Shown in pieces: positions 11,701 to 40,926 of a DNA stretch of 64,000 nucleotides (positions are counted from its first letter, which is position 1; each line of letters begins with the position of its first letter). Under the pieces are notes generated by a model. That model was not told the origin of the DNA, searched no databases, and saw only the letters and a list, made by a program, of their open reading frames with translations. Both the position numbers and the translations under genes were made by a program. Source of the DNA: Citreicoccus inhibens (GTDB lineage Bacteria > Myxococcota > Myxococcia > Myxococcales > Myxococcaceae); the NCBI RefSeq assembly GCF_019039035.1, contig NZ_JAHNZT010000005.1, forward strand, positions 248,001 through 312,000, read 5' to 3'.

Positions 11701-12605
11701 AGGACGCGGTGCAGCCCGTGTTGTTGCAGCGCGGAGAGTCGCGGCGACTCGTGGTGCCCATGCTGCGCGCGGGCACGCTGCCTCACGGTTTCACGTATGT
11801 CCCGCCCGGAGACGTGCGCTTCGGCAGCGCCGCCGAGGCGAGCGTGCGTGAGTTCTTCAACACCGTGCCCCAGCATCGCGTGGAGGTCCCGGGCTTCCTC
11901 GTGGCGCGAAACGAGACCACCTTCGCGGAGTGGCTGGAGTACCTGGAGGCCCTGCCTGCCTCCGAGCGCGCGCGGCGCCGTCCGCACGTGGGCAGCGGTG
12001 GCTACGTCGGGCTGCTCGCGCTGGAGCCCGAGCGAGGGACATGGCGCCTGCGCTTCCAGCCCGGGGACACGCCGTACACCGCGCGCATCGGTGAGCCGCT
12101 GCGCTACGCGAAGCGGGAGCGCCGCGCCGAACAGGACTGGCGGCGCTTCCCGGTGAGCGGCATCACCTTCGCGGATGCGCAGGCATATGCATCCTGGCTC
12201 GCGTCCACGGGGCGCGTGCCGGGGGCGCGGCTGTGCACGGAGCTGGAGTGGGAGCGTGCCGCGCGCGGTGTGGACGGGCGCGAGTTCCCGCACGGAGACC
12301 GACTGGAGCCCGACGAGGCGAACGTCGACACGACGTACGGCAAGGAGCCCGGGGGCTTCGGTCCGGACGAAGTGGGCAGCCACGCGGCGTCGCGCAGCCC
12401 ATTCGGCGCGGATGACATGGCGGGCAACGTCTGGGAATGGACCCGCTCGTGGTTGGAGCCCGGGCGTCCCGTGGCGCGAGGTGGAAGCTTCTCATTCGCA
12501 TCGACCTCGGCGCGCTCCAGCAACCGCGAGCTGCCCGAGCCGTCGCTGCGCGACGTGGCGTTGGGGCTGCGCGTCTGCGCGGATCCACCGCCGTCCAATC
12601 CCTGA
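8775..12605 (+). CDS. Ser/Thr protein kinase - nSTAND NTPase - FGE-like fusion
   Basis: A 1276-aa multidomain signalling protein. The Hanks-type kinase (about residues 25-300) has a Gly loop GRGRTGRV, catalytic Lys in VAVKF, HRDIKPGN (H143-N150) and DFGLAK. Next is an nSTAND-type NTPase: Walker A GDSGVGKSS with K379, Walker B LYVDQLEEL with D462, and a helical region to about 755. One membrane segment lies near 760-782. The region after it (about 800-990) has helical and beta-sandwich/PEGA-like sequence, ending in a formylglycine-enzyme (FGE/sulfatase-modifying) fold from about 1003 to the end, with VPPGDVRFGS, ARLCTELEWERAARG and DDMAGNVWEWT. The FGE catalytic cysteine pair is missing (the strand reads RGGSFSFASTS), so this domain probably binds a ligand or protein. 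The ATG at 8775 is preferred; GTG 8748 is possible. The kinase faces the cytoplasm and the FGE-like part the periplasm, by inference. Confidence 0.88.
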   Translation: MYRPPRVGPPAASSSSDTWTPPKEFDEYRLVRPIGRGRTGRVYLAQDTLLERPVAVKFIPALGTNALSRFLVEARAAARIQHPNVVTLYRVGQLENQPYLVSEFIRGVSLDQLARPVPWERALAMGRDLARGLGAAHHRGVLHRDIKPGNAVLTEGGEVKLLDFGLAKLLDHAAVPDEPKRPAGLGAQALPLDLASEPGAMLGARSLGGLFLPSLPRGALVGTPYYMSPEAWAGDELTARSDVYSLGIVLYELCAGVGPFRDVPWRELSEVVRSREVRPLAEVAPSVDASFAAAVDRCLRRNPAERFASATQLLDALELLSREDAAVEVPEGNPYRGLQAFEAEHRALFFGRRREQRAVLERLKAETFLLITGDSGVGKSSLCLAGILPAVADGALEDGRRWHAARLVPGRRPVAALAAAVAPLLQLQDEALAEAMRIDPSSLVRWLRVRLGAAEGLVLYVDQLEELITLASPEEAQLAGSALGSLVEGPSGLRVLATGRSDFLTRLTSVPGLGSDVPRALYLLRALSAEETREAIVGPARVKGVRFESEAMVGALVASSAADGGLPLLQFALAELWDARDGAAGVMTQAALDSMGGVAGALARHADEAVALLLPERRAAARGVLLRLVTADGTRARKTDRELVGNDPRYRAALEALVQARLLVAREAEEGTAYEVAHEALLTGWRTLARWLADAGERREVQARLEAAAAQWERLCLARESLWGPRQLAEAAVLDSSELTRRERDFLEESRRTMVRSRRVRQVLAVGFLLSLALLYGGLQLRERWRLDARVRHELIEATRSDEEVRIEHEALEAERADAFQLYDTGKKAEADQAWARASARASRLHRRFDAVADRLERALALAPSRADVRAALADFLLERALWAEVEGETGGLPALLQRLRLYDTSGERWRRWTAPARFALEGLAPNATVELRPVSRDAQGREVLGPPMSVGVGPWRDVPVPPGSYQLTARAPGHEDAVQPVLLQRGESRRLVVPMLRAGTLPHGFTYVPPGDVRFGSAAEASVREFFNTVPQHRVEVPGFLVARNETTFAEWLEYLEALPASERARRRPHVGSGGYVGLLALEPERGTWRLRFQPGDTPYTARIGEPLRYAKRERRAEQDWRRFPVSGITFADAQAYASWLASTGRVPGARLCTELEWERAARGVDGREFPHGDRLEPDEANVDTTYGKEPGGFGPDEVGSHAASRSPFGADDMAGNVWEWTRSWLEPGRPVARGGSFSFASTSARSSNRELPEPSLRDVALGLRVCADPPPSNP

Positions 12606-12784
12606 GTCGCGCTCCCCGCGCAGGTCTCTCGGCGCGCCGGGCTGTCCGGCCGTGCCAGACGATTGACGCGTGACCGACATCGCAACCGTACCGGGGATTG
12701 CTCGCACCTTGCTCCACGGACCCCGGCTGCAAACCTTGGAGGTCGCAGGACGCAAGACGGAGGAGTGGCGTCGGGAGGTGTACC

Positions 12785-13768
12785 GTGAGCGCGAGCAAGG
12801 TGCTGGGGGTGGTGGTGGTTGCCGGAGTGCTGTGGGGCTGCGGAAGCGAGTGGGGGCCACCCGTGCCCCTGGCGGCGTCCTCGCAGGGGGCGGAGCTGTC
12901 GACACCCAATGGGCGCAACCTCAACGGCCGCAACCTCAATGGGCGCAACCTCAACGGCTCGGACTTGAGCGGCATGCTCATCGCCGTGGACTATGCGAAT
13001 GCGCGGCAGGGACCCACGCTGCGCCCGCTCGACTCGGTGCGGTTGGTGGGCTCCTCCTTCGTGGGGAACATCGGCACGCACGTGTTGTCGGGCGCGGACT
13101 TCGTGGGGGTGCGCTTCAAGGGGCGTCTGGGGGAGGGGGGCGCGGTGGAGCTGCGCGTGGATGACGCCGACCAGGGCGCTGGAGCCGAGCACGACGTGTG
13201 GTCCTATGCCGTGTCCTTCCTCGACAAGGATGGGCAGTGGCGCTCCATCTGCCGGGGCCCGAACGACGAGCCGCTGCGCGCCATCCCCGCGGCGGGGCGC
13301 TGGGACTACCGCCAGGGGGTGCCCGGCGCGGGGGGGGCGAAGCTGGATGATCCGTCCGCCTTCACCTTCGCATGCGAGGGCGCGGCGATCGCGAAGTGCA
13401 TCCACTTTGGTTACAAGCCGTGGGCGCTGCGGCCGGACGGTCGGAGTCTGGCGGCGTACCACCAGGCCTGCACGCGCATGGTGCGCGCGGACTTCTGTGG
13501 CGATGGGGAATCCCACACGCAAGATGGGCAGTGGGTGAATGTCTACGACGCCATCGGCGTGCAGCAGGACACCGAGCCGTGGGTCCCCGAGGCGGAGTGG
13601 GACGTGAGTGGCTCGCGCTGCTTCACCGCCGTGACACGCGCGCACACGGAGGTGAGCTGCCCGGGACGGCTGAATCGTCCGGACTGCGGCGCGTCGGCCC
13701 ATTTCCAAGCCGGCACGCTCCTGATGAGTGAGTCGCCGTTGGGCGCCATTCCTCCCGTCGCGCCGTGA
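12785..13768 (+). CDS. ADYC-domain lipoprotein
   Basis: A 327-aa predicted lipoprotein. The GTG at 12785 follows GGAGG at a good distance and gives a signal peptide ending in lipobox LWGC. Four pentapeptide-like units (NGRNL x3, NGSDL; 15-bp repeats at 12908-12967) follow. The rest matches my memory of the ADYC family of myxobacterial secreted proteins: WSYAVSFLDKDGQWRSIC, CEGAAIAKCIHFGYKPW, YHQACTRMVRADFCGDG with ADFC in place of ADYC, and a Cys-containing C-terminal stretch. Function is unknown; the many cysteines suggest disulfides outside the cytoplasm. It lies between the kinase fusion and the RND pump genes on the same strand. Confidence 0.82.
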   Translation: MSASKVLGVVVVAGVLWGCGSEWGPPVPLAASSQGAELSTPNGRNLNGRNLNGRNLNGSDLSGMLIAVDYANARQGPTLRPLDSVRLVGSSFVGNIGTHVLSGADFVGVRFKGRLGEGGAVELRVDDADQGAGAEHDVWSYAVSFLDKDGQWRSICRGPNDEPLRAIPAAGRWDYRQGVPGAGGAKLDDPSAFTFACEGAAIAKCIHFGYKPWALRPDGRSLAAYHQACTRMVRADFCGDGESHTQDGQWVNVYDAIGVQQDTEPWVPEAEWDVSGSRCFTAVTRAHTEVSCPGRLNRPDCGASAHFQAGTLLMSESPLGAIPPVAP

Positions 13769-13943
13769 TGGGAGGCCGGGGACGGGCTCGGTGATGTCCG
13801 CCCTTGGACGGCCTGGGCGCGCGCTTCGTTCGGTGGCGGAGCGCGCGCGGGCCCCTCGGTGGGCGCGTCGGGACTCGGTGATTAACCCGCCGGTGGCACC
13901 TCCAGGTGGAGCAGCGGTGGCTGGGAGCGCGAGGAGACACGCC

Positions 13944-15107
13944 ATGGGTGGGCGGTGGGCATGGAGTGGTGGGCTGTCGGTGCTCGCGATGCTGGCGTCG
14001 GGCTGTCGCGCGCGCTCCAACGAAATGGAGCCAGCCACTCCGGCCTCGGTGACGCTGGGGCCGGAGAACGTGGTGCAAGTGAAGCCGGCCGAGCTGCGCA
14101 GCGGGCCGGTCCTCTCCGGCACGCTCCAGGCGCCGAGGGCCGCCAACATGCGCGCGGAGGTCGGTGGCCGCGTCTTGAACGTGAAGGCGGAGCCCGGCCA
14201 GCCGGTGCACAAGGACGAGCCCCTCGCGCGCATCGACGAAGGGACGCTGCGGGCCCAGGTGCTCGCGGCCCGCTCCTCGCTGCGCGTGGCGGACAACGCG
14301 CTCCGCGTGGCCCAGTCGGATGAGGCGCGCAACTCGCGGCTGGCGAAGGCGGGGGTCATCACCCAACGCGACTTCGAGCGTGCTCAGCTCGCTCGGACGC
14401 AAGCGGAAGGACAGTTGGCGGATGCACGCTCGCGCCTGAAGCTGGCGGAAGAGCAGCTCACCCGCACGCGCGTCGTCGCGCCGTTCGATGGCGTGGTCAG
14501 TGAGCGCGCGGTGCATACAGGCGACATCGTTCAGGTGGGCTCGCCCCTCTTCACGGTGGTGGATCCGCGCTCGCTTCGGTTGGAGGCCGCGGTGCCCGCC
14601 GTGCAGCTCGCGCAGGTGAAGGCTGGCACGCCCGTGGAGTTCCATGTCACCGGCTACGGCGAGCGGACGTTCCGCGGGCAGGTGGAGCACATCAACCCCG
14701 CGGTCGATCCGACGACGGGGCAGGTGCGCATCTATGTGGACGTCCCCAATGACTCGCGGGCGCTGCTCTCGGGGCTCTTCGCGCAGGGCCGCGTGGCCTC
14801 CACCGCGAGCCAGGGATTGGCCGTGCCTCTGGACGCGTTGGATCCGCGGAGCGACCCACCCTCCGTGCTGCGCATCCACGATGGCAAGGTGGCGCGGGCT
14901 CCCGTGACACTGGGCTTGCGTGACGAGGTGGCGCAGGCCGTGGAGGTTCGCTCTGGCCTCCAGGACGGAGACCTCGTGTTGCTCGGCTCCGCGCGCGAGC
15001 TGACCGAGGGGACGCCCGTGAAGGTGACCGCCTCCCCAGCGCCTCGCGCTCCGAACCAGGGCGTGGGCGGCGCGGGGCGTGACTCGGTTCCGGAGCGCGC
15101 CCCGTAG
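13944..15107 (+). CDS. RND efflux periplasmic adaptor (membrane fusion protein), lipoprotein
   Basis: A 387-aa adaptor of the HlyD/AcrA family. The ATG at 13944 has GAGGAGA upstream and gives a lipoprotein signal MGGRWAWSGGLSVLAMLASGC. Visible parts are the first half of the lipoyl domain (ANMRAEVGGRVLNVKAEPGQ), a coiled-coil hairpin (about residues 90-160, rich in Ala/Arg/Gln heptads), the second lipoyl half (TRTRVVAPFDGVVSERAVHTGD) and beta-barrel and proximal domains with GQVEHINPAVDPTTGQVRI. It should link the inner-membrane pump encoded 31 bases downstream to an outer-membrane channel. No TolC-type gene is adjacent. Confidence 0.93.
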   Translation: MGGRWAWSGGLSVLAMLASGCRARSNEMEPATPASVTLGPENVVQVKPAELRSGPVLSGTLQAPRAANMRAEVGGRVLNVKAEPGQPVHKDEPLARIDEGTLRAQVLAARSSLRVADNALRVAQSDEARNSRLAKAGVITQRDFERAQLARTQAEGQLADARSRLKLAEEQLTRTRVVAPFDGVVSERAVHTGDIVQVGSPLFTVVDPRSLRLEAAVPAVQLAQVKAGTPVEFHVTGYGERTFRGQVEHINPAVDPTTGQVRIYVDVPNDSRALLSGLFAQGRVASTASQGLAVPLDALDPRSDPPSVLRIHDGKVARAPVTLGLRDEVAQAVEVRSGLQDGDLVLLGSARELTEGTPVKVTASPAPRAPNQGVGGAGRDSVPERAP

Positions 15108-19331: not shown

Positions 19332-19468
19332 GACACGCGTCCATCTTCAAGGCGTGTGCCGCGGCGCTTCTCCCTCTTGGGTTCGCTTGACTCGACGCGC
19401 GCAGCTCCGCCGTCAGCGCATTCCTGTCCAAGCGCGACAGTGGCCGCGGACAATCTGTCGCGATGCTC

Positions 19469-19936
19469 GTGGCTCGTCGGCGCGCGCAGCTGTCAGTCGC
19501 TCCCGGTCCGGGCGTCGGCCCGTCTTTCCCTCGAATGACGGAGTCGAAACATGGGCTGGGCGACAGAGGCAGTGCAGGCGCTGTCACGCGGGTCGCGCGT
19601 GGAGGTGAGGCCCCGAGGCGGGTCCATGCGAGGTCGCATCGAGGACAATCAGCGCGTGACGCTGAGCCCGGTGGACCCGCGTGACGTTCAGGTCGATGAC
19701 ATCGTGCTGGTGCGGTGGAGGGGTGGGGTCCTCCTGCATCTCGTGAAGCGGGCCACGGCGGAGCAACTGCTCATCGGCAACAACGTGGGCCGCATCAATG
19801 GCTGGGCGCCTCGTCGAGACGTCGTCGGCCGCGTCGTGCACATCCATCCCCTCACGACGTGACGTGCTCGCGGTCGCAGTATCGCTGCTGAACGTCCGCG
19901 CGCCGGAGCGGTTGGCGTGAGCGCGCCGGGGCTCTA
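19469..19936. repeat. Long direct repeat, left copy (about 468 bp)
   Basis: Nearly identical to 22261-22730 (offset 2792 bases, then 2794 after a 2-base indel near 19888). It carries the S24/S26-like gene plus about 80 bases on each side. Few substitutions are visible, so the duplication is recent. The left copy ends exactly at the TA that abuts the IS element end at 19937; the right copy ends exactly where the unique sequence in front of the GH77 gene begins. Confidence 0.9.
19551..19862 (+). CDS. Small S24/S26 (signal peptidase-like) domain protein, copy 1
   Basis: A 103-aa protein. Its core resembles the S24/S26 fold of LexA and signal peptidase I: GGSMRGRI carries a Ser in the G-x-S-M position of the catalytic serine, followed by VQVDDIVLVRWRG, LLHLVKRA (a candidate general-base Lys) and LLIGNNVGRINGWAP, ending VVGRVVHIHP. 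It has neither a DNA-binding domain nor membrane segments, so it would be a free-standing small hydrolase or an inactive relative. The ATG at 19551 is used here; in the duplicate at 22343 the same position is TTG. A weak GACGGAG ribosome site precedes it. The family call is by eye. Confidence 0.6.
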   Translation: MGWATEAVQALSRGSRVEVRPRGGSMRGRIEDNQRVTLSPVDPRDVQVDDIVLVRWRGGVLLHLVKRATAEQLLIGNNVGRINGWAPRRDVVGRVVHIHPLTT

Positions 19937-22060: not shown

Positions 22061-22260
22061 AGGTAGCGACTTCATTTGTCCAGCGGCTTGGCATTCCTCC
22101 AGGGCGCTCATCTCGCCCTCTCTTCCAGCCCAGCGTGGCCCAAGCCTCCCCAGCCGCTAGTTGTTCGCGCCTCGAGCTCCGCTGCGCGGCCCTCCACTCC
22201 CGCGCTTCTCCGCGCTCGCGTGGTTCGAAGACCCGCGCTTCTTGAAGGTTGTCTCCACTT
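22061..22260. other. Stretch before the right direct repeat, no gene seen
   Basis: The remaining 200 bases before the right repeat carry no gene I can support. They may contain the 5' part of the Cys-rich remnant, but no clear start or homology is visible. Confidence 0.4.
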
Positions 22261-22730
22261 GTGGCTCGTCGGCGCGCGCAGCTGTCAGTCGCTCCCGGTC
22301 CGGGCGTCGGCCCGTCTTTCCCTCGAATGACGGAGTCGAAATTTGGGCTGGGCGACAGAGGCAGTGCAGGCGTTGTCACGCGGGTCGCGCGTGGAGGTGA
22401 GGCCCCGAGGCGGGTCCATGCGAGGTCGCATCGAGGACAATCAGCGCGTGACGCTGAGCCCGGTGGACCCGCGTGACGTTCAGGTCGATGACATCGTGCT
22501 GGTGCGGTGGAGGGGTGGGGTCCTCCTGCATCTCGTGAAGCGGGCCACGGCGGAGCAACTGCTCATCGGCAACAACGTGGGCCGCATCAATGGCTGGGCG
22601 CCTCGTCGAGACGTCGTCGGCCGCGTCGTGCACGTCCATCCCCTCACGACGTGACGTGCTCGCGGTCGCGCAGTGTCGCTGCTGAACGTCCGCGCGCCGG
22701 AGCGGTTGGCGTGAGCGCGCCGGGGCTCTA
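22261..22730. repeat. Long direct repeat, right copy (about 470 bp)
   Basis: Partner of 19469-19936. Differences noted: the start codon of the internal gene (ATG to TTG), one Ile-to-Val codon near its end, and GCAGTATC against GCGCAGTGTC after the stop. It ends at CTCTA, after which sequence belonging to the GH77 gene begins at once. Confidence 0.9.
22343..22654 (+). CDS. Small S24/S26-like domain protein, copy 2 (TTG start)
   Basis: A 103-aa protein differing from copy 1 by a single Ile-to-Val change near the C terminus (VVHVHP). The start codon position reads TTG instead of ATG, with the preceding C also changed to T. TTG can initiate in bacteria, but expression should be lower, and this copy may be on its way to becoming a pseudogene. 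All features noted for copy 1 (GGSMRGRI serine motif, candidate Lys in LLHLVKRA) are retained. It directly precedes the GH77 gene on the same strand. Confidence 0.55.
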   Translation: MGWATEAVQALSRGSRVEVRPRGGSMRGRIEDNQRVTLSPVDPRDVQVDDIVLVRWRGGVLLHLVKRATAEQLLIGNNVGRINGWAPRRDVVGRVVHVHPLTT

Positions 22731-31380: not shown

Positions 31381-33735
31381 CTACTGCCGCGCCATCAGCG
31401 CGTTCTGCTCGGCCTTCTCGTCGTGGAGGTGCTCGCCGGACACGTCCACCACGACCTGATGGAGATCGCCGGTGAAGACGAAGGGCGCCTCGTACATGGA
31501 GCTGGTGGGTGAGTAGTCATCCCGGCCGCAGGTGAGGCCCTCGCCCAGGCTGATGACCAGCGGCATGGTGGCGTCGATGTCGCTCTGGGCCACCAGATCG
31601 CCGTTGATGTACAGGCGCCCGCGCCCGGGCGTGCCGCGTCCCTGCGCGAGGTCCGGCTTGCCGGTGGGCTCGAACTCGAAGCGCAGCTCGGCGTGTCCGC
31701 GTGGGACTTCCACCGCGGATTCGAGGTGGAACTCCCGCTCGCCCACGAAGTTGTAGAGGTAGTGCAGCTTGTGGTCCTTGATGAAGAAGCTGTAGCCGCC
31801 GGTGATGCCGCCGTGGCACAGCAGCACGCCCTCGGCGCCGTCCGTCACCTCCACGTCGGCGGTGATGGTGTGCGGGCGGTTGAGCACGTGCGCGGCGACG
31901 TTCTCCGGCACGGGCGAGGTGTTCGGCCGGTACACGTAGCGCTGTCGGTCCGGGGAGATTTGGGGCCGCTCGGCGGAGAACACCGCGCGGTCCGGCGAGG
32001 CCAGCGGCAGCACCTGGTACTTGCCCGCCTCCACGTACCAGAGGGCGATCATCTCGATGAGCTTGCCGCGGTTCTGCTCGGCCACGTTGCGCGTCTCGGA
32101 GCAGTCCTCGGCCACGTGGTACAGCTCCCAGCCCTCGGCGTCGAGCCGGCGCAGCCGGTCCTCATCGAGCTTCGAGGCGCCGAACTCCTCACCCGCCTCC
32201 TTGAACGACGGGCCCGGGAAGGGGCACACCGCGCGCCAGCCGTCGTGGTACAGCGCGCGGTTGCTGAACATCTCGAAGTACTGCGTCACGTGGCGGCTGG
32301 GCGCCTGCGCGTCCGTGAAGGAGTGCTTGAAGCTGACGCCCTCCAGCGGGGACTGGGTGACGCCGCGAATCTGCTCGGGCGGCGAGATTCCCAGGCAGTC
32401 CAGCACCGTGGGCACCATGTCGATGGCGTGGCAGTACTGCGTGCGCAGCTCGCCGCGCGCGGGGATGCCTCGCGGCCAGTGGACGATGAACGGGTCGGTG
32501 GTGCCGCCGCGATACGTCTCGCGCTTCCAGCGGCGGAAGGGCGTGTCACCCGCCCAGGCCCAGCCCCAGGCGTAGTGATTGAAGTACTGCGGGCCGCCCA
32601 GCGCATCCATCGCCTGGAGGTTCTGCTCCAGGGACTCGGGCGTGTTGTTGAAGAACTTCAGCTCGTTCACCGAGCCATGCGGACCGCCCTCGGGGCTGGC
32701 GCCGTTGTCGGAGATGACCATCACGAGCGTGTTCTCCAGCTCGCCGCTCTCCTCCAGCGCGTCGAGCAGCCGGCCGATGTGATGGTCCGTGTGCTCGAGG
32801 AACCCGGCGAACACCTCCATCATCCGTGCGTAGAGGCGCTTCTCTTCCGGTGGGAGCGCGTCCCAGTCCTGCACGTCCGGGTCATGCCGAGACAGCTGCG
32901 TCCCGGGCGGCACGATGCCCAGCTCCAGCTGACGCTGGAAGACCTTCTTGCGGTAGGCGTCCCAGCCGTCATCGAACTGGCCGCGGTACCTGTCCGACCA
33001 CTCCTTGCGCACGTGATGCGGCGCGTGCATGGCGCCGGTGGCGAAGTAGAGGAAGAAGGGCTTGTCGGGCGCGACCTGCTTGGTGTCCGCGATGAAGCCG
33101 ATGGCGCGGTCCACCAGATCCTCGGTGAGGTGGTAGCCCTCCTCGGGCGTGCGCGGCGGAGGGACGGGGTGATTGTCGTGGACGAGGTCTGGGTAATACT
33201 GGTGCGTGTCTCCACCCAGGAACCCATAGAAGCGCTCGAAGCCGCGCCCCAGTGGCCAGCGGTTGTAGGGCCCCGCCGCGCTGGTCTGCTCCGCGGGCGT
33301 CAGGTGCCACTTGCCCAGCGCATACGTGTTGTACCCGTGCTCCAGCAGCATCTCGGAGAGGAAGCCGTTCTCGAACGGGATGGTGCCGTTGTAGCCGGGA
33401 TAGCCGAGCGACACCTCGGTGATGGTCGCCATGCCATTGGAGTGGTGGTTGCGCCCGGTGAGGATGCACGAGCGCGTGGGCGAGCAGAGCGCCGTGGTGT
33501 GCATGTTGTTGTAGAGCAGTCCGCCCCGCGCGAGCCGGTCCAGATTCGGGGTGCGGATGGGCGAGCCATAACAGCCCAGGTGGCCGAAGCCCGTGTCATC
33601 CAGCACGATGAACAGCACGTTGGGCGCGCCCTGGCGCGCGCGGATGGGCGCGGGCCACGCAGGAGATGACTGCTCCCACGTGCGGCCGATGACGCCTGGG
33701 AAGGTGCTTCCTCTCGGGTATTCCTTGAGTGCCAT
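31381..33735 (-). CDS. Arylsulfatase (Cys-type, formylglycine)
   Basis: A 784-aa sulfatase of the alkaline-phosphatase superfamily. The metal-binding start is NVLFIVLDDTGFGHLGCYG, and the modification motif CSPTRSCILTGR (C-x-P-x-R) has the Cys that is converted to formylglycine. Other conserved blocks are YALGKWHL, GAMHAPHH and MVISDNGASPEGG. The C-terminal 200 residues form a beta-rich domain as in large AtsA-type arylsulfatases. No signal peptide is seen, so it is probably cytoplasmic. The ATG at 33735 follows GAGGAGG. The only formylglycine-enzyme-like domain in the window (in the kinase fusion) lacks catalytic cysteines, so maturation must rely on a gene elsewhere. Confidence 0.93.
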   Translation of the reverse strand: MALKEYPRGSTFPGVIGRTWEQSSPAWPAPIRARQGAPNVLFIVLDDTGFGHLGCYGSPIRTPNLDRLARGGLLYNNMHTTALCSPTRSCILTGRNHHSNGMATITEVSLGYPGYNGTIPFENGFLSEMLLEHGYNTYALGKWHLTPAEQTSAAGPYNRWPLGRGFERFYGFLGGDTHQYYPDLVHDNHPVPPPRTPEEGYHLTEDLVDRAIGFIADTKQVAPDKPFFLYFATGAMHAPHHVRKEWSDRYRGQFDDGWDAYRKKVFQRQLELGIVPPGTQLSRHDPDVQDWDALPPEEKRLYARMMEVFAGFLEHTDHHIGRLLDALEESGELENTLVMVISDNGASPEGGPHGSVNELKFFNNTPESLEQNLQAMDALGGPQYFNHYAWGWAWAGDTPFRRWKRETYRGGTTDPFIVHWPRGIPARGELRTQYCHAIDMVPTVLDCLGISPPEQIRGVTQSPLEGVSFKHSFTDAQAPSRHVTQYFEMFSNRALYHDGWRAVCPFPGPSFKEAGEEFGASKLDEDRLRRLDAEGWELYHVAEDCSETRNVAEQNRGKLIEMIALWYVEAGKYQVLPLASPDRAVFSAERPQISPDRQRYVYRPNTSPVPENVAAHVLNRPHTITADVEVTDGAEGVLLCHGGITGGYSFFIKDHKLHYLYNFVGEREFHLESAVEVPRGHAELRFEFEPTGKPDLAQGRGTPGRGRLYINGDLVAQSDIDATMPLVISLGEGLTCGRDDYSPTSSMYEAPFVFTGDLHQVVVDVSGEHLHDEKAEQNALMARQ

Positions 33736-33910
33736 GGTGTGTCCTCCTCGCGGAGCGGTAGCAAGCGCGCTCCGTGGAGAACTGGACACGACGGCGCCCG
33801 CGTGCCGCAGCCCGCCGAGCGGGGACAGGCGGCGCAGGCTTGGCTTGTCCGCCACTTGACGCCTGGGGGGCGTGCCTCAAGCATGGGCACCCGAGCCAGG
33901 GAGCGACCGG

Positions 33911-35575
33911 ATGTTCTTCTACTTCGAGTGTCAGAGCTGCAAGAAGGTGAGCGACCTCATCCCCGAGAGCGAGCTGCCTGACGAGCCAGCGCAGTGCTCC
34001 GAGTGCTCGAAGAAGTTCGGCCCGAGCAACAAGGTCGAGCGCATCGCGGTCAACTACTACATCTTCCACTGCCGGAAGTGCGACTACACGTCTGGGATGT
34101 GCTCCGCGCTGGACTACCCCACACAGAAAGGCATTCGTCCCCGGTGCCCCAAGTGCGCCCAGGTGGATGACGTCTACTTCGTCAAGCCGCACGTGCGGAA
34201 CAAGCCCGAGCGTCTGAAGAAGCGCAAGCACCCGGGGGTCTTGCCGCCCGACGAGGTCACGGACCTGGGCCTCTATCAGACCGAGGACCTGGAGAAGACC
34301 GCGAACGAGGAGCTATTGCAGGCGATCAAGAAGACCAAGCGCACGCTGTTCCCGTTCCAGCAGGAGGATGACCAGGTTCGGCTGTTCACGTTGGGGTCCA
34401 CCTCCTCGAGCGCGAAGCTGGCGCGCAGCGAGTCGCGCTATCAGGAGAAGAAGAAGTTCCGGAAGGCGTTCAACAAGCGCTTCGGGGAACTCTCCGACGC
34501 GCGCGACCCGATGAAGACGACGATGCACGTGGGCACGCCGGTGCCGTTCACGCAGTATCAGTCGGACCTGGGGCACTCCGAGAACATCAACGGCGTGACG
34601 TACCCGAAGATGAGCAAGTCCTCTCCGGTCGTCGTCAACGGCGCCAAGCTGGTGGACCGGTCGTTGACGTGGGACTACCGCGAACTGGGACCCAACTCGT
34701 TCCTGCGGCGGCTCTGCTCGCTCGTGTACGTGGTGGAGTTCAACGGCGGTGGTGACTCGAACAACCCGGTGGAGGTCCAGGCCATGTGGGCGCATGGCTC
34801 GCTCTTCCTCTCCACGAACAACTACACGTTCTCCAAGGCCTTGCTGGAGGCGCTCCAGTCGGACGGCTCGGTCGCGGCGTTCCTGGACAAGCTGAAGCTG
34901 CCGGGGTTGACGACCGGGAGCTACGACACGTCGCTGCGCAACTTCGGCAACGAGCACAAGGCGAAGCTCGGCGTGTACCGGGATGAAATCGTCAAGAACA
35001 CCTACCCGGACTACTTCCGATTCAAGTGGGAGTACGTGTTCAGTCAGATGCGGCTCGCCATGCGGTGGAGCGCGGCGAACATTCGGGGCATCACCGTCTT
35101 GAAGGACAAGACGCGCAAGGGCTACCCGTTCTGGAGCGTCGACTCGACGGTGGAGACCGGCAAGATCTACGTGGTGCTCCCCAAGGCGCTCACGAAGGGC
35201 GAGGGGCAGGTCTACTTCACGAAGAAGAAGATCCACGCCGAGCAGCTCTTCTACCCCATCTTGATGCAGCTCAATGGCGCGTCGCGAATCAGCCTGTTCC
35301 AGCCCGCCTTCATCGGGGGCGTGAAGACGCCCTGCCGCACCTGTTACGAAGTGCTTCAGGACGCGTCCCGGGTGCTGGGGGACAAGCTCATCCTGCCCAC
35401 GGATGCCTTCGGGCACTACTGGGGGGCGTCTGGCATGCATGTGCCCAACACGGTGTTCCCGTCGCATCTTCAGACGCTCGTCTTCGGGGCGCAGAAGAGC
35501 ATCGATGAAGGTTCCATCAACATCTACAACACGGAGATGCCGCCCTCGCCCAAGCATGATGACGAGGACGACTGA
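33911..35575 (+). CDS. Zinc-ribbon protein with C-terminal deaminase-like domain
   Basis: A 554-aa soluble protein not belonging to a family I can name. The N terminus holds two zinc-ribbon-like units: C7/C10 with C29/C32, and C54/C57 with C79/C82. A charged helical region (about 95-180) and an uncharacterised middle follow. Near the C terminus the pattern H442-A-E444-Q, then 30 residues later TPCRTCYEV (P474-C475-x2-C478), preceded by strand-like GKIYVVLPKAL, matches the zinc and catalytic motifs (HxE...PCxxC) of the cytidine deaminase-like fold, as in nucleic-acid deaminase families. No signal peptide, so any substrate would be intracellular. It precedes the topoisomerase-RecQ gene by 206 bases in the same direction. 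The deaminase call is inference from motif spacing. Confidence 0.6.
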   Translation: MFFYFECQSCKKVSDLIPESELPDEPAQCSECSKKFGPSNKVERIAVNYYIFHCRKCDYTSGMCSALDYPTQKGIRPRCPKCAQVDDVYFVKPHVRNKPERLKKRKHPGVLPPDEVTDLGLYQTEDLEKTANEELLQAIKKTKRTLFPFQQEDDQVRLFTLGSTSSSAKLARSESRYQEKKKFRKAFNKRFGELSDARDPMKTTMHVGTPVPFTQYQSDLGHSENINGVTYPKMSKSSPVVVNGAKLVDRSLTWDYRELGPNSFLRRLCSLVYVVEFNGGGDSNNPVEVQAMWAHGSLFLSTNNYTFSKALLEALQSDGSVAAFLDKLKLPGLTTGSYDTSLRNFGNEHKAKLGVYRDEIVKNTYPDYFRFKWEYVFSQMRLAMRWSAANIRGITVLKDKTRKGYPFWSVDSTVETGKIYVVLPKALTKGEGQVYFTKKKIHAEQLFYPILMQLNGASRISLFQPAFIGGVKTPCRTCYEVLQDASRVLGDKLILPTDAFGHYWGASGMHVPNTVFPSHLQTLVFGAQKSIDEGSINIYNTEMPPSPKHDDEDD

Positions 35576-35781
35576 GCGTCACGCTGGGCTGCGTGAGGCG
35601 GCTGGCGCCGGGGCGGCGCCTGACGGGCCGAGTCGGCTGGCTGTTCGCTGCCCGGGCAGCCCTCATGAGTAGGGACACGGGGGCCTCCCTCATGTCAGCC
35701 TGAGGCGATAGGGGAGCAGGTGGGCCGCGTGTGGCGCGGGTTCGTCCGGGGTAGGGCGGACAGGGCGGGAGGGGAGAAGCC

Positions 35782-40902
<5,121 letters not shown>

Positions 40903-40926
<24 letters not shown>

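Follow-up and report, generated by a model that had tools for sequence, protein, structure and literature searches.

The locus described here raises the question of what a lone gene of the myxobacterium Citreicoccus inhibens, a predator living in soil, makes, in which two cysteine-rich ribbons are joined to a deaminase-like motif, and whether its product belongs with the neighbouring topoisomerase or stands on its own. The gene lies in the window, by which we mean the whole stretch of 64,000 nucleotides analysed, and a sequence-only reading of this DNA had proposed a putative deaminase. The gene was delimited as follows.

33911..35575, + strand: gene of a protein of 554 aa with zinc ribbons and a predicted deaminase fold; an open reading frame with a GC3 of 0.92 and a start shared by eight full-length relatives

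The GC3 value is typical of genuine genes in the window, and the host genome carries a single copy of the gene. An alternative GTG start is present 39 nt upstream of the ATG at 33911. Since all eight relatives in the alignment of full-length sequences begin at an ATG, with the common N-terminal pattern M-[FL]-[FY]-Y-[FY]-x-C, the original assignment of the start to the ATG at 33911 holds.

The putative active site is made up of two elements.

35234..35242, + strand: putative catalytic H442-A443-E444, invariant in eight relatives and opening helix 443-456 in both models
35330..35344, + strand: predicted zinc-binding P474-C475-R-T-C478, invariant in eight relatives and opening helix 476-492 in both models

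The [HC]-x-E and P-C-x(2)-C motifs of the cytidine-deaminase-like superfamily are thus present in the window protein and in its eight relatives, and H442-A-E-Q and P474-C475-R-T-C478 stand exactly as the sequence-only reading had described them, with a spacing of 32 residues. The lowest identities among full-length relatives are 41-44% and the highest is 83%; over this range H442, A443, E444, P474, C475, R476, T477 and C478 are all invariant, together with N303-N304 and the block W254-DYRELGPNSF. The motif is not due to chance, because the loose pattern H-[AGVP]-E-x(18-45)-P-C-x2-C occurred in 24 of 200,000 shuffled versions of the protein and, among the 238 called ORFs of at least 100 aa from the window and the fetched loci, was confined to the zinc-ribbon deaminase family. 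What we take to be the PROSITE cytidine/dCMP deaminase pattern is not strictly matched, Y448 occupying what is presumably a LIVM position, and this pattern was not used as a test.

The region around the motif was examined by structure prediction, which returned a domain and, within it, a hairpin.

34673..35455, + strand: predicted deaminase-fold domain, about residues 255-515, from the AlphaFold model of residues 225-554
34772..34822, + strand: likely beta1-beta2 hairpin E288-N304 (EVQAMWAHGSLFLSTNN) with the invariant N303-N304; strands 289-294 and 297-302 in both models

The AlphaFold models were built from an alignment of eight sequences. The whole protein was modelled with medium confidence (pLDDT 62, pTM 0.48), while residues 225-554 folded alone gave a pTM of 0.72, most ten-residue blocks at 265-485 averaging a pLDDT of 70-95 and falling to about 60 at three places. 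The predicted elements are helix 261-273, hairpin 289-294/297-302, a long insertion that is mainly helical but includes two strands, helix 443-456 beginning at HAE, strand 466-470 and helix 476-492 starting from PCxxC. The deaminase fold has the order alpha1-beta1-beta2-(insertion)-alpha2-beta3-alpha3, and the modelled order is the same, with HxE and CxxC opening the predicted alpha2 and alpha3. Strand structure does precede the motif, as had been suggested, and it is rather formed by the hairpin 289-302 and by two strands inside the insertion before HAE than by an isolated beta-strand.

Foldseek alone returned no significant match for either model, and for a structural second look the Foldseek chains ranked highest were aligned anew with VIA-align 2. 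With the whole-protein model, all the listed matches to the C-terminal part were deaminases (38 of 50 rows), the best Z being 4.0, to a cyanophage dCMP deaminase, and APOBEC3 and the dsDNA deaminase DddB being matched as well. With the model of residues 225-554, deaminases made up 46 of the 50 structural matches listed, with a Z of at most 3.8. Across both models the matched types were dCMP, cytidine, APOBEC3, AID, ADAT2, TadA and DddB deaminases, aligned over about 100 residues in superpositions that cover both motif helices. S-adenosylmethionine synthetases, which occupied the Foldseek top rows with tiny TM scores, reached a Z of 2.4-2.5 on re-alignment, under the best deaminases. A profile search of the PDB gave no match, and a viral structure library gave chance matches only. 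As the structural scores are low, the claim rests on motif, invariance, element order and identity of the matches all pointing the same way, rather than on a single score. On this joint evidence the window protein very probably has a deaminase fold, in agreement with the initial proposal, and motif and models make it likely to be catalytically active as a divergent zinc-dependent deaminase with a large insertion. Together with its relatives the protein forms a genuine orphan family, divergent within the deaminase fold and new in its domain arrangement.

This arrangement is completed by the following parts on either side of the domain.

33929..34006, + strand: predicted zinc ribbon 1 (C7, C10, C29, C32), cysteines invariant, residues 1-48 superposing on MCM zinc ribbons
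34070..34156, + strand: predicted zinc ribbon 2 (C54, C57, C79, C82), all four cysteines invariant
34193..34585, + strand: variable basic linker, residues 95-225, least conserved in alignment A1 and partly of low model confidence
35513..35572, + strand: conserved C-terminal tail around TEMPPSPK, without predicted fold; T541, E542, P544, S546 and P547 invariant

The N terminus is predicted to form a double zinc ribbon, with two four-cysteine sets arranged as CxxC pairs. The double CxxC...CxxC ribbons recognised in the sequence-only reading are supported by the invariance of all eight cysteines in the eight relatives and by the superposition of residues 1-48 on MCM zinc ribbons, with a Z of 2.6-3.6 (12 of 50 rows among the matches listed for the whole-protein model). 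Matches to ribosomal L22 at residues 165-230 are probably an artefact of the basic region. A shared C-terminal sorting tail was considered and rejected, a pattern search of the host genome having found the tail in the deaminase gene only. As motif and fold suggest, H442, C475 and C478 would hold the zinc and E444 would shuttle a proton as the zinc-activated water attacks the base, while N303/N304, judged by other members of the superfamily, may lie close to the substrate. The two N-terminal ribbons would probably dock the deaminase on nucleic acid or on a protein carrier.

The gene is patchily distributed. Any match was found in 10 of 195 host-phylum genomes, all ten in the host family; of the 195 genomes searched, seven carry intact copies, eight intact genes in all with two in genome G086, and two carry relics. 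A decayed copy is present at L020, and the relic at L021 (9192-9272, - strand) consists of 27 residues of the deaminase C terminus, 70% identical, in a genome without an intact copy; the part surviving there is the C-terminal tail. Searches of phages, plasmids and viral contigs with the protein returned no relatives, a weak Aeromonas phage match being a thymidylate synthase; PHROGs gave no match for the window protein, and one relative matched an unnamed family at E 0.23. Compared with the nearest flanking genes, deaminase identity was 83 vs 90-97%, 77 vs 88-90% and 82 vs 94%, and the deaminase dN/dS was 0.34-0.58, indicating that the gene makes a protein under purifying selection. The deaminase evolves faster than its nearest flanking genes and yet remains under purifying selection.

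In the window the gene is preceded by a divergent sulfatase gene and followed, on the same strand, by a topoisomerase III-RecQ fusion gene, with which it had been suggested to form a DNA-processing unit. This linkage was rejected, since homologues of the topoisomerase-RecQ region occur in 58 of the 58 host-family genomes searched, against few with the deaminase, and in six of the six family members inspected the slot that separates topoisomerase-RecQ from the epimerase gene is occupied by other genes, with no deaminase among them; the relatives of the deaminase lie elsewhere. All six keep the aminotransferase, transporter and epimerase genes before topoisomerase-RecQ, and the slot (window 31381-36000) is variable, with different gene sets in each genus inspected and the sulfatase and deaminase genes here. 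The adjacency to topoisomerase-RecQ is coincidental. The fusion gene itself (window 35806-40926, + strand) joins a topoisomerase III (Toprim and Topoisom_bac) to a RecQ helicase with HRDC; its linker contains a 63-bp (21-aa) tandem repeat, 93% matching, at 37953-38213, and its homologues in the host family lie mostly in very long open frames of about 1,300-1,700 aa. A 300-bp direct repeat in the window, 99% identical and 2.8 kb apart (19466-19765 and 22258-22557), takes in the beginnings of two 104-aa ORFs that are almost identical to each other (19551-19862 and 22343-22654).

Relatives of the deaminase were located in three further contexts (L013/L014/L016, L017 and L018/L019/L020), and no gene common to the four contexts was found. 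Comparison with related genomes revealed two near-clean empty sites, the first with 1,821 bp holding only the deaminase gene vs 73 bp in G089 and the second with 1,606 bp vs 476 bp in G076; the two borders that were read showed neither a transposase nor a target duplication. A further conserved element stands upstream of the gene.

33856..33884, + strand: promoter-like block TTGACG-17-AAGCAT, conserved upstream of relatives in three contexts

CTTGAC occurs 40-55 nt before the ATG, followed 17-18 nt on by AnCAT, in three of the four contexts. Owing to this conservation across contexts, the deaminase unit seems to bring its own promoter. The gene seems to be a one-gene unit entering and leaving different myxobacterial chromosome sites, with the promoter-like block in three of four contexts.

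The best explanation as a whole is a cytosolic, stand-alone zinc-ribbon deaminase used in genetic conflict or defence and carried as a one-gene unit, a reading to which we assign a probability of about 0.5. Among its parts, action on a nucleic-acid substrate appears reasonably likely, and a defence-type role is proposed tentatively, at somewhat less than even odds; no known defence genes were found adjoining the deaminase gene, and PADLOC models gave no match. The enzyme would act as a stand-alone cytosolic protein, without a secretion domain or an immunity partner. It might deaminate bases in the DNA or RNA of phages or plasmids that enter the cell, or else attack the RNA of its own host as a form of suicide. 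Toxins of the deaminase kind normally need an antidote gene. The lack of an antidote suggests that the deaminase would act selectively on foreign nucleic acid, be kept under tight regulation, or do the host no harm until triggered. A bolder version, which we consider doubtful, is a new family of promoter-carrying one-gene mobile cassettes whose ribbon-guided deaminase mutates or edits invaders, as a bacterial counterpart of APOBEC-type innate immunity; an immunity gene would then be unneeded because targeting, not an antidote, would protect the host. The structural second look showed a fold-level resemblance to APOBEC/AID and TadA/ADAT2, whereas no sequence relation to them was detectable and, in the window protein, a large insertion separates beta2 from the HAE helix.

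Alternatively, the protein might be a toxin which, like DddA and other deaminases of the polymorphic-toxin type, is brought into rival cells, for instance as cargo of type VI secretion. The deaminase fold is frequent in interbacterial toxins (PMC3482391; PMC7901873), and fast evolution together with gain and loss would fit such a function. The polymorphic-toxin deaminases (DddA/DddB, YwqJ, DYW-like SsdA) have the same fold with HxE/PCxxC, and DddB is among the structural matches; however, the window protein differs from them in having neither a trafficking module nor an adjacent immunity gene. As the sequence-only reading had observed, there is no secretion signal: the protein lacks a trafficking domain, signal or repeat, and its N terminus consists of the two predicted zinc ribbons, without a Pfam delivery domain. 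The observation that no immunity neighbour is present also held across the wider comparison, with an immunity gene in none of the four contexts, no conserved neighbour, and no plausible small or immunity-like ORF in the short stretch that follows the window gene. One context in four, the Corallococcus-type L013, has a VgrG-like gene (12006-14474; Phage_GPD, Gp5 trimerisation and OB domain) about 2.3 kb downstream of the deaminase gene, and the next ORF starts LysM-like. However, GH43 and RNase H genes stand between VgrG and the deaminase, GH43 is core to the genus of this context whether the deaminase is present or not, and VgrG is absent from the other contexts. A delivered toxin is an unlikely explanation.

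It is distinctly unlikely, on balance, that the protein edits host transcripts or tRNA in a regulated way, in the manner of the A-to-I editing OLD (OTT_1508-like) proteins of fungi. During antiviral responses the fungal proteins act as A-to-I editors on the gene next to their own, at its premature stop codon (PMC12754623). RNA editing therefore has to be taken seriously as an alternative, and the zinc ribbons could bind RNA. OTT_1508 (PF14441), a family of nucleic-acid deaminases whose alignment falls on the motif and which also speaks for the preferred reading, was the sole recurring Pfam match fitting the motif, in six of eight relatives at E<1 (best E 0.0065), with bit scores of 12.5-16.3 in the members with scores listed, which do not reach the curated cut-off of 27 bits. 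Alignment with hhalign to OTT_1508 members paired the motifs at E 0.09-0.13, and a profile from five OTT_1508 members did not separate the deaminase family from shuffles. OTT_1508 deaminases are the nearest Pfam family, and by its motif the window protein may work like one of them, with membership unproven. Genuine OTT_1508-like deaminases occur in the same bacterial family, likewise as single genes (L023 964-1794, L024 1435-2250, L025 1435-2316, L026 1234-2352 and L027 937-1848), and no obvious immunity partners were seen in their short flanks. Both groups have stand-alone genes, the same spacing of HAE and K-x-x-C-x-x-C, a hairpin ending in (S)TN/ATN followed by an insertion and then HAE, and a conserved G...[VI]P after the motif, and the myxobacterial members L023-L025 also start with a short cysteine-rich element. 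In contrast, the window protein is twice as long, with a bigger insertion, two CxxC...CxxC ribbons and a Pfam match below the cut-off, and its family has the conserved TExPPSPK tail. The fungal logic depends on a fixed neighbour, whereas the window family has no conserved or common neighbour, and absence of the gene from most relatives indicates that it is not essential.

A metal-binding domain of another fold, merely sharing the H-x-E/C-x2-C pattern, would agree with the sequence and Foldseek matches, which are all non-significant; however, the motif helices and strand order fit the deaminase fold and deaminases predominate in both structural second looks, so that this reading is quite improbable. 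A small-molecule (nucleotide or nucleobase) deaminase with accessory ribbons is highly improbable: a plant cytidine deaminase and a phage dCMP deaminase were the top single structural matches, with all Z tied, but enzymes of this kind do not usually carry two zinc ribbons with a basic linker, and fast turnover and patchy presence are at odds with housekeeping metabolism.

The stand-alone zinc-ribbon deaminase is thus the reading we prefer. Iyer et al. 2011 is reportedly the primary classification of these deaminases. Base editors are built on nucleic-acid deaminases, of which new ones, e.g. DddA and SsdA, have come from families of bacterial toxins. Base deamination is also employed in phage defence by RADAR, a two-gene cassette that acts on free ATP and dATP as well (PMC13327615); the likeness to RADAR is a possible functional analogy only, in the deamination of bases against phage, whereas the window gene stands alone. 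If the preferred reading is true, an unguarded, stand-alone, ribbon-linked deaminase would either edit foreign nucleic acid selectively or act as an RNA editor under regulation, and both types would bear on the origin of the eukaryotic editing and mutating deaminases.
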